Shown here: piece after piece, positions 40,877-47,656 of the stretch
Numbering within the stretch: position 1 is the first letter of the stretch
Layout of the letters: each line of letters opens with the position of its first letter
Assembly: GCF_900119385.1 (NCBI RefSeq)
Contig: NZ_FPKO01000009.1
Span: 767,405 to 831,404, forward strand
From: Thermophilibacter mediterraneus
GTDB taxonomy: Bacteria > Actinomycetota > Coriobacteriia > Coriobacteriales > Atopobiaceae
Length of the DNA stretch: 64,000 nt
Reading direction: 5' to 3'
The notes under the pieces: generated by a model
Databases searched by the model: none
What the model saw: the letters and a program-made list of their open reading frames with translations, nothing else
What the model was told of the DNA's origin: nothing
Program-made: the position numbers and the translations under genes

Positions 40877-41048
40877 GGCCGCACCTTTCCTACGTGCGCA
40901 CCGGGCGTGTCCGATGCGTCTGATTCCATGGTGGGACCTCGACGGGGGGCACACCATGAGCAGGGCGGCGCTTCTGTAAGGTTTCTTATCAATGTGGCCG
41001 GATTGTACAGACGGGCGAGAAGAACGGGCGAGGCCCGCGCCGCGTCCC

Positions 41049-46168: not shown

Positions 46169-46513
46169 TCAGTCGGTCCGCGCCTCCTCCGTGGCGTCGG
46201 CTCCCGCTGCGGCTCCGCTGTGCTCGCAGAGCCCGAGCTGGTCCTCGGGCAGGCGGTGGGCGCGGCCCTGGAGGCGGATCATCTCGAAGCCCTCGGTGAG
46301 GCCCGTGACCGCGACGCGCCCGTCCTCGACGAGCTGTCGGTAGAACTCCTTGCCGCGCGCCGTGCAGAAGATCGCCGCTCCGGGCTCGGCCAGCATGATG
46401 TCGATGATGCGGGCCTGCGGGGCGCCGCTCTCGTCGACCGTGGCAAACGAGACGTCGCGGATCTGGCGCAAAAGCTCGATGCACGACTGCGCGGAAACGC
46501 ATTCGCTGCTCAT
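46169..46513 (-). pseudogene. Truncated pyridoxamine-5'-phosphate-oxidase-like flavin protein
   Basis: The 114 residues begin MSSECVSAQSCIELLRQIRDVSFATVDESGAPQARIIDIML and contain FCTARGKEFYRQLVEDGRVAVTG, the split-barrel FMN-binding start of this family. The normal C-terminal portion is replaced by a short GAAAGADATEEARTD tail. With the adjacent nitroreductase remnant it marks a deletion junction near 46165. It could still yield a short product. Confidence 0.65.
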
Positions 46514-46890
46514 GGGTACCTCCGATGACGTGGTGATTGTTCGGTGAGCCCATCATCTGGAAAGCGGTGTCCAATGAGAAGTAAGCACTTTAAAGTGCGG
46601 TAGGAACCTTGTGGTAACCAACGCGAGCATCATGCCTGCGGGCAACATGAGCGAGCTTGCCGTGGACTCCTGGATGAGCATGGCCACCGTGCTGACCGCG
46701 GGTCCCATCCGTAGGCGCGAAACGACAGTTTAGGTACGAAAAGTGTCGGCCAGCGCCTACGGCTGGGATTCTGTAGGCGCCCGCCGACACTTCTGGCGAG
46801 AAAAACGTCGTTTCGCGCCTACACCTAGTCACGCACGCCCGCGACTCGACGAAGCTGCTCTGCGCCACGGAGCCGTCCGCGGGGTGCGAC
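46514..46890. other. Intergenic region with operator palindrome and repeat element
   Basis: No intact gene is present. GCACTTTAAAGTGC (46585-46598) is a 14-bp perfect palindrome, probably an operator for the minus-strand flavoprotein promoter. A plus-strand protein-like fragment (NASIMPAGNMSELAVDSW) at about 46620-46675 is unrecognised debris. A nested inverted-repeat element fills 46711-46822. Confidence 0.5.
46711..46822. repeat. Three-tier nested palindromic element
   Basis: The outer stem GTAGGCGCGAAACGAC (46711-46726) pairs perfectly with GTCGTTTCGCGCCTAC (46807-46822). The middle stem AAGTGTCGGC (46741-46750) pairs with GCCGACACTT (46783-46792). The inner stem GCGCCTAC (46753-46760) pairs with GTAGGCGC (46773-46780). 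GTAGGCGC therefore occurs four times in alternating orientation. It resembles a non-autonomous mobile or REP/BIME element. Confidence 0.7.
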
Positions 46891-47656
46891 ATGTTTGACT
46901 TGGGAAGTCTGGTGGCGGCCCCGCGCGGGGGACTCGCCGAGACGCAGCTGGGACGCCTTGCGCGCGCCCTCAACGAGGCGGACGCGGTCGTCGTCGGCGC
47001 GGGCGCGGGCCTCTCGACGGCCGCGGGGCTCACGTATGACGGGCCGCGGTTCGAGGCGATCTTTGGCGACTTCATCGAGAAGTACCGCTTTCAGGACATG
47101 TACTCCGGGGGGCTTCTGCCCGTTTGGCTCCTTCGAGGAGCGCTGGGCGTACTGGAGCCGCTACATCTGGTGCAACCGCTACGTGAAGGCCCCGGGCACC
47201 GCCTACGACGATCTGCTCTCCCTCGTGCGCGACAAGGACCACTTCGTGCTCACCACCAACGTGGACCACCAGTTCCAGTTGGCGGGCTTTGACGGGCGAC
47301 GCCTCTTCTACACCCAGGGCGACTACGGCCTCTTGCAGTGCAGCGTGCCCTGTCACAGGCAGACCTACGACAACGAGCACCTGGTCAGGGACATGATCGA
47401 GGCACAGGGCTACGTGATTGCCGCCGATGGCGCGCTCACGCTGCTGGAGGGCGCGCGCCCGGCCATGAGCGTGCCGTCGGAGCTCGTCCCGCGCTGCCCG
47501 GTGTGCGGCCGGCCCATGGCCATGAACCTTCGCTCGGACGACACCTTCGTGGAGGACGAGGGCTGGTACGCCGCTGCGGCGCGCTACCAGGACTTCCGGC
47601 GGCGCCACCAGCGCGGGCGCGTGCTCTATTCACCCCTACGCCGCAGGCGGGGTTAG
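46891..47656 (+). pseudogene. SirTM-like sirtuin, frameshifted and 3'-truncated
   Basis: Frame 1 encodes MFDLGSLVAAPRGG... with the NAD-binding VVGAGAGLSTAAGLTYDG. At the six-G run 47107-47112 the homology moves to the next frame: GGFCPFGSFEERWAYWSRYIWCNRY, LTTNVDHQFQLAGFDG, FYTQGDYGLLQCSVPCH and CPVCGRPM. One extra G explains the shift. The C-terminal end after GRVLY is lost. The sequence resembles the class M (macrodomain-linked) sirtuins, protein ADP-ribosyltransferases; no macrodomain gene is adjacent. Confidence 0.75.

Follow-up and report, generated by a model that had tools for sequence, protein, structure and literature searches.

REP-like repeats are common in bacteria. In the REP and REPIN-BIME systems with RAYT (REPtrons), short, family-specific palindromes lie in pairs or clusters between genes, beside the enzyme gene and also dispersed without it, as described in the parts of two papers used here (PMC3116915, PMC3733652), and the repeats of this study are arranged in the same way. 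The partner enzyme described for REP-like repeats in the sections of Di Nocera et al. on which we draw is of the RAYT type (PMC3733652). In the TIRtrons treated in those sections (Di Nocera et al. 2013, PMC3733652), an enzyme gene is flanked by long inverted repeats that belong in part to repeat families; the gene designated X below is placed likewise, but the TIRtron enzyme is still a Y1 tyrosine transposase. The AbiEi antitoxins of S. agalactiae (6y8q) and M. tuberculosis (Rv2827c, 1zel) have a fold like that of X residues 4–207, and Rv2827c binds inverted repeats according to the excerpted text of PMC7319586; X differs in having an additional C-terminal nuclease-like domain and long palindromes on both sides of its gene. 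EDxHD/Vsr nucleases (I-Bth0305I and Vsr) have a fold like that of X residues 209–333 in the predicted model. I-Bth0305I is described as acting on its target as a dimer, and this target measures nearly 60 bp (PMC3943268, in excerpt), a length whose closeness to the 45–70-bp palindromes found here is suggestive only. Unlike I-Bth0305I, X was not seen in an intron, and the palindromes around its gene are intact, with no target interrupted by the gene.

The repeat family of the present locus (family A) is, like REP/BIME, a dispersed extragenic palindrome with a GTAG foot. The working logic is also like that of REP-RAYT, namely an enzyme gene beside the repeats, syntenic inheritance, and many enzyme-less copies in trans. 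On the other hand, the enzyme is of the Y1/HUH type in REP/BIME-RAYT and a predicted AbiEi-Vsr-like protein here. X and its palindromes would work like REP-RAYT but fail its defining link to Y1. Searches of the open-licence literature listed no account of an AbiEi-Vsr protein whose gene has palindromes on both sides.

The window, that is, the whole 64-kb stretch of DNA that was analysed, lies in a genome of 2.37 Mb in 9 contigs (G000, hereafter the own genome). The features of the element at 46711–46822 and its neighbours are as follows.

46711 to 46760, plus strand: 50-bp palindromic unit A, of family A (covariance model R1, E 6.6e-14; R1 was built partly from unit A)
46761 to 46772, no strand: 12-bp spacer between units A and B (54 of 58 pairs of adjacent units have a spacer of this length or 1 bp shorter)
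46773 to 46822, plus strand: 50-bp palindromic unit B, in the opposite orientation to unit A as judged from the similarity of the inner parts (15/26 versus 10/26 positions)
46711 to 46726, plus strand: left arm of the 16-bp outer stem (predicted fold)
46807 to 46822, plus strand: right arm of the 16-bp outer stem (predicted fold)
46795 to 46807, plus strand: GGCGAGAAAAACG, a motif strongly over-represented genus-wide, inside unit B (motif counts)
46169 to 46513, minus strand: left neighbour, an ORF of 114 aa, flavin/pyridoxamine-oxidase-like by eye
46891 to 47656, plus strand: right neighbour, sirtuin-like by eye, in two frames (46891–47292 and 46895–47656), with homologues in loci L103 and L152

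The element is an inverted repeat with arms of 50 and 50 nt that are 78% complementary and 12 nt apart. Four copies of GTAGGCGC were located in it, at 46711(+), 46753(−), 46773(+), and 46815(−), with the alternating orientation given in the preliminary description. GTAGGCGC occurs 12 times in the 64-kb window against 2.89 expected, and none of 100 shuffled sequences reached 12. In the predicted fold, the main stems are 16, 10, and 10 bp with 4 and 2 bp between them, and the innermost stem consists of the 8-bp GTAGGCGC arm plus 2 bp. The three-tier nested palindrome previously proposed, with stems of 16, 10, and 8 bp, was thus confirmed with a slightly longer innermost stem. The fold energy was −71.8 kcal/mol (z −7.42), and none of 200 shuffled sequences was equally stable; together with the motif count, this result upholds the earlier judgement that the element is too regular for chance. 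Because the 50-nt unit recurs elsewhere, the element is better described as two 50-bp palindromic units, 46711–46760 and 46773–46822, with the layout GTAGGCGC-N4-CGAC-(18 nt)-GTCG-N4-GCGCCTAC.

The element sits between divergent genes. No U-tract was found 3′ of it, and searches of the window yielded no Rfam match at the gathering threshold and no tRNA. The sirtuin-like gene (46891–47656) is split over two frames by a frameshift or a sequencing error. When the element was removed in silico, a single open frame spanned both flanks (region 46601–46960) into the sirtuin-like ORF, which may be due to chance. The peptide joined across the element-free flanks had no convincing relative among the loci read, and a disrupted gene at this place is therefore not claimed. 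The strongly over-represented motif GGCGAGAARRACG was found in the window at 41014, 45250, 46795, 56866, and 61867/61878. It occurs 181 times in the own genome against once for the reversed control, 26–447 times in 30 other genomes of the genus, and 0–7 times in 19 genomes from other families of that order. Of the copies in the loci read, 31 were intergenic (44 kb), 41 were genic (285 kb), and 11 were within units. GGCGAGAARRACG is a possible uptake or regulatory signal.

A looser pattern, GTAGGNGC-N20..50-GCNCCTAC, gave 9 matches per strand in the own genome against 1 for its reversed control, and 8 of the 9 were 50-nt family-A units. A covariance model built from 14 units detected 15 units at 8 intergenic sites of the own genome (E<1e-6), and 7 of these sites were pairs. 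When the model was applied to 60 genomes, the own genome included, matches at E≤0.01 were obtained in 20 genus members and one other genome, 21 in total, with some of the matches belonging to sister palindrome families. The unit sites of the relatives were taken from the best approximately 150 matches of this search, to the exclusion of weaker sites. An exact pattern of 20 specified bases was found in 29 stretches among 84,980 species genomes (a set that possibly excludes the window's own genome), all in four Olsenella/Atopobiaceae, namely Olsenella sp. An188, Candidatus Olsenella pullistercoris, Candidatus Olsenella pullicola, and an uncultured Atopobiaceae bacterium. These are taken to be the genomes labelled G019, G020, G012, and G021, respectively. 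The exact pattern had no match in viral contigs, and a viral origin of the units was rejected. The 42 loci read contained at least 105 units: at least 40 in G019, 22 in G020, 23 in G021, and two each in G005 and G012, and 15 plus a degenerate one in the own genome. Among the matches listed from these loci, 102 of 105 units were exactly 50 nt long, whereas the REP unit is 20–40 bp in the cited part of PMC3733652 and the palindromes described here as a whole are 45–70 bp. Also among the matches listed, 54 of 58 pairs of adjacent units were spaced 61 or 62 bp apart. Family A is unlike REP/BIME in forming arrays with this 61–62-bp period, and arrays of three to five units are found in G021. The element had been suspected to be a non-autonomous mobile repeat or a structured RNA, and a genome-wide search for GTAGGCGC-type pairs had been proposed, with a single copy in all related genomes and no conserved structure as the outcome that would speak against it. 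The search gave 15 units, with 7 paired sites, in the own genome; the multi-copy, intergenic, non-autonomous repeat is borne out by these and by the at least 22–40 units in each of three close Olsenella relatives.

An associated RAYT was the partner suggested in the preliminary description. The own genome has three Y1 genes, two of which are intact ORFs of 247 and 257 aa (G000:C1:398949 and C1:1071391; L039 and L040) that could be RAYT-like. No good family-A unit lies within 1.5 kb of any of the three, and no Y1 match was obtained in G005 or in G019, which is 99% complete and has the most units among the loci read. Since Y1 is missing in the unit-rich G019 and no unit adjoins a Y1 gene in the own genome, RAYT was rejected as the partner of family A, and the proposed link is not supported. 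It is very improbable that the units are a classical REP/BIME family, that is, GTAG-footed palindromes spread by a Y1 tyrosine transposase, possibly a past RAYT that is now lost. The GTAG foot, the pairing, the intergenic placement, and the many copies agree with such a family, and GTAG-tagged REPs are frequently near RAYT genes in the portion of PMC3733652 used here; however, in addition to the distribution of Y1, the sister palindrome families around X do not have the GTAG foot.

In G019, G020, and G021, two family-A arrays bracket one ORF of approximately 351 aa (X) between two genes that we take, by eye, to be dnaE and addA. The TAG stop of X is supplied by the first downstream unit (in G021, by a half-unit). 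In G019, X lies at C15:50205–51257. The preliminary description missed this likely partner gene because X lies outside the window. DNA matches to X, some of them short, were obtained in 28 of the 31 genomes of the genus. The palindromes around X homologues differ in sequence but are built alike; examples are GTGCGGGTTGYGGACGG (own genome), GCGGGGCC...CGAC (G011 and G017), and GGGGACGC (G012 and G028). A generic palindrome scan, used only to find families, gave 362 deduplicated matches against 123 (not deduplicated) in the reversed sequence.

The bracketing of X was examined by collecting imperfect palindromes from the 700 bp upstream and the 700 bp downstream of the gene and scoring the best upstream-downstream match, with a score of at least 20 as a pass. 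The 48 genus loci consisted of the 29 matches given (L195–L221, L223, and L224) and 19 hand-picked from further matches (L226–L244), and 26 loci outside the genus were added, one per genome (L248–L273). Before counting, L222 (no X found), L245 and L274 (the same places as L196 and L223), and L246 and L247 (repeats of L201 and L210) were dropped. Matching palindromes were present on both sides of X at 43 of the 74 loci (29/48 in the genus and 14/26 outside). At the same threshold, none of the 65 control genes and none of the 222 mismatched X flanks passed. Of the 300 random segments, 5 did, and all five straddle the X gene of L159. The control genes and random segments came from genus and own-genome loci only, and mismatched flanks are therefore the sole control outside the genus. 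The remaining 31 loci were below the matching threshold, four of them (L234, L240, L253, and L262) having no palindrome on either side. These 31 include two of the three family-A loci, L195 and L196, and in these the covariance model found units on both sides (as L150 and L135). A palindrome on either side was seen at 70 of the 74 X loci, but the controls gave 47 of 65 (control genes) and 85 of 150 (random segments). Because presence on one side does not discriminate, only matching palindromes on both sides were used.

None of 47 unit clusters among the matches listed lay inside a called gene (simple codon-usage caller), although several overlapped a gene end by 4–18 bp. At 44 unit sites of four genomes, again among the matches listed, the adjacent genes were tandem at 27, convergent at 9, and divergent at 8; this is close to the 97 tandem, 22 convergent, and 33 divergent among all 152 junctions of more than 60 bp in the loci of those genomes, and there is thus no clear bias in gene direction. 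Translated comparison gave a unit-bearing counterpart in another species for 6 of the 8 own-genome sites; the exceptions were the single unit at C1:608003 and the window site, for which no shared place turned up in the loci read. For each of the 12 site pairs that were compared, the homologous sequence runs on past both ends of the element with its order preserved. The shared-site elements aligned over their full length, and at some sites they were better conserved than their flanks. As 6 of 8 sites are common to other species, the own-genome copies appear to be mostly inherited, and most look old. The own-genome and shared-site comparisons revealed neither a recent insertion nor an excision product nor a target duplication. 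Target-site duplications, as would be expected at the ends of a MITE of a DDE transposase, were not seen by eye at six own-genome sites, where there was no recent insertion to compare. The earlier assignment of the element to a decaying zone was not borne out by the absence of clusters from called genes and the sharing of 6 of 8 sites between species.

The pairing of neighbouring units was somewhat above that of random partners, with 231 of 432 cells, compared with 179 within units and with a random-partner mean of 172 and maximum of 211 (500 shuffles). By similarity, 34 of 54 adjacent pairs were more like direct copies, 14 were inverted, and 6 were ties; because so many look like direct copies, one long hairpin is not the general rule. 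At L159:2946–3070, tandem half-units approximately 35 bp apart directly follow the stop codon of X, as if arrays grow by half-unit steps. Another reading is that the units are transcript-level elements (terminators or stabilisers of mRNA ends) under selection and that the tie to X is historical. The strong hairpin (−71.8 kcal/mol), the conservation at shared sites, and the position of units directly after stop codons at several sites, with even the TAG supplied at X, are consistent with it. However, we regard it as quite unlikely: no U-tract follows the window element, units also occur between divergent genes, as at the window, the paired positions within a unit did not show covariation above shuffles, and the two-sided bracketing of X would be left unexplained.

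No Pfam or NCBIfam match was obtained at E≤1 for the two X proteins scanned. An AlphaFold2 model of X (approximately 350 aa), based on 65 sequences, had a pLDDT of 92 and a pTM of 0.89, compared with a pLDDT of 36.5 without the alignment; L220, L238, L250, L254, L256, L259, L268, L270, and L272 were counted among the 74 loci but lie outside this alignment. In structure comparisons with the predicted model, residues 4–207 matched the AbiEi antitoxin 6y8q (Z 11.3 over 184 residues, rmsd 6.4) and Rv2827c (1zel, Z 7.7), and residues 209–333 matched I-Bth0305I (3r3p, Z 9.4) and Vsr (1cw0, Z 8.0; 1vsr, Z 7.1), although values of Z around 8 may mean no more than a common arrangement. Foldseek of the model gave no PDB match at E≤0.001, and a PDB sequence search with the X profile gave nothing convincing. 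Across the 65 sequences, E215 and E263 do not vary, and conservation reaches at least 90% at D249, D265, and K269. X is therefore predicted to be a two-domain protein with an AbiEi-like N-terminal part and a Vsr/EDxHD-like nuclease domain.

The predicted AbiEi-like N-terminal fold, and the binding of Rv2827c to two sets of inverted repeats in its own promoter (PMC7319586, in the part available), would fit palindromes that serve as operators through which X represses its own gene like AbiEi antitoxins, the dispersed copies being regulatory sites of X elsewhere. We consider this reading unlikely, since matching palindromes are present downstream of X as well, in many cases no more than approximately 100 bp from its stop codon, and a regulator alone explains neither the nuclease-like domain nor the many-unit arrays. 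The placement of units relative to gene direction (27/9/8 of 44 versus 97/22/33 of 152) does not discriminate in this respect.

At E≤1e-10, X gave 76 matches, which fall in 29 of the 296 Actinomycetota genomes searched, with the own genome and two genus members included. In G203 (5.1 Mb), the X-flanking palindrome had 82 matches on both strands at E≤1, and 28 distinct sites at E<1e-3, two of which are at X; three sister genomes had 9, 13, and 13 matches to it. In Collinsella aerofaciens (NZ_OY725717.1), X is WP_148332043.1, annotated as 'hypothetical protein', and is bracketed by GTCTCGATCTGTAAC-family palindromes, five upstream and three downstream (shuffled means, 0.05 and 0.1). One of the upstream palindromes had 18 matching places in NZ_OY725717.1; because both-strand matches and places near X are counted in this number, it is no demonstration of spread in C. 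aerofaciens. X as a gene of mobile replicons was rejected, as it was found in one of 72,556 plasmid records (a 900-kb Collinsella record) and one of 50,697 phage records at E≤1e-5.

Across 45 of the 48 genus loci, the similarity of the palindromes was correlated with the identity of the X proteins (Mantel r 0.55; none of 2000 permutations as high), a correlation to which the shared descent of neighbouring DNA contributes. At the dnaE-addA site, X proteins with 85–87% identity share palindromes (scores 27–42), whereas those with 62–68% identity carry unrelated ones (scores 6–16). At the third family-A locus, X is 70–73% identical to the other two, with palindrome scores of 14–17. The orientation of X relative to dnaE is opposite in L195–L197 (A-type) and in L199, L200, L202, and L205 (C/D-type), addA being seen in all but L200; this is compatible with recombination between the palindromes that bracket X, or with X having arrived separately.

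The own genome has three X matches, at C6:273456, C6:390814, and C6:449387. None of them is bracketed by family A, and no matching palindromes were found at C6:390814 (L226). Its dnaE-addA site is a spacer of approximately 360 bp without X or family A; other palindromic sequence, GCGCACTCGGC..., was seen there by eye (G000:C3:208640–209000, L012). No X remnant was detected beside the 8 own-genome family-A sites at E≤1e-3 with seven X queries. Because no X bracketed by family A was found in this genome, its family-A copies look orphaned, and because the family-A X is also absent from the dnaE-addA site, they are probably now immobile. These copies may be kept as transcript-end or DNA-structure elements.

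At the level of sequence comparison, the repeat family, its intergenic spread, the shared sites, the bracketing of X, the parallel divergence of X and palindromes, and the dispersed copies are shown, and from these we infer that X may bind, cut, or spread the palindromes. The account that we consider probable is that the window element is an orphan, non-autonomous unit pair of a palindrome family that brackets X in close relatives, and that X acts on these palindromes. In this mechanism, a dimer of X would recognise a 45–70-bp palindrome and nick or cut it, and repair or replication across the hairpin would place further palindromes between genes elsewhere, pairs and arrays among them. The copying route would resemble that proposed for RAYT and REPINs, with another enzyme. 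A broader and more tentative proposal, to which we give somewhat less than even weight, is that a widespread class of repeat-enzyme systems exists in the Actinomycetota, in which a dimeric AbiEi-Vsr (EDxHD-like) nuclease recognises, co-evolves with, and spreads its own 45–70-bp palindromes by cutting and hairpin-templated repair, independently of Y1/DDE transposases; the window element would then be a fossil of such a system.

These results suggest a bacterial partnership of repeat and enzyme without the known REP transposase. If this is true, X would represent a second, structurally unrelated class of enzymes tied to palindromic repeats, and a protein family without a Pfam or NCBIfam match here would gain a role. 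The worlds of AbiEi and of homing endonucleases would be joined, and the origin and spread of palindromic repeats would become testable in Actinomycetota.
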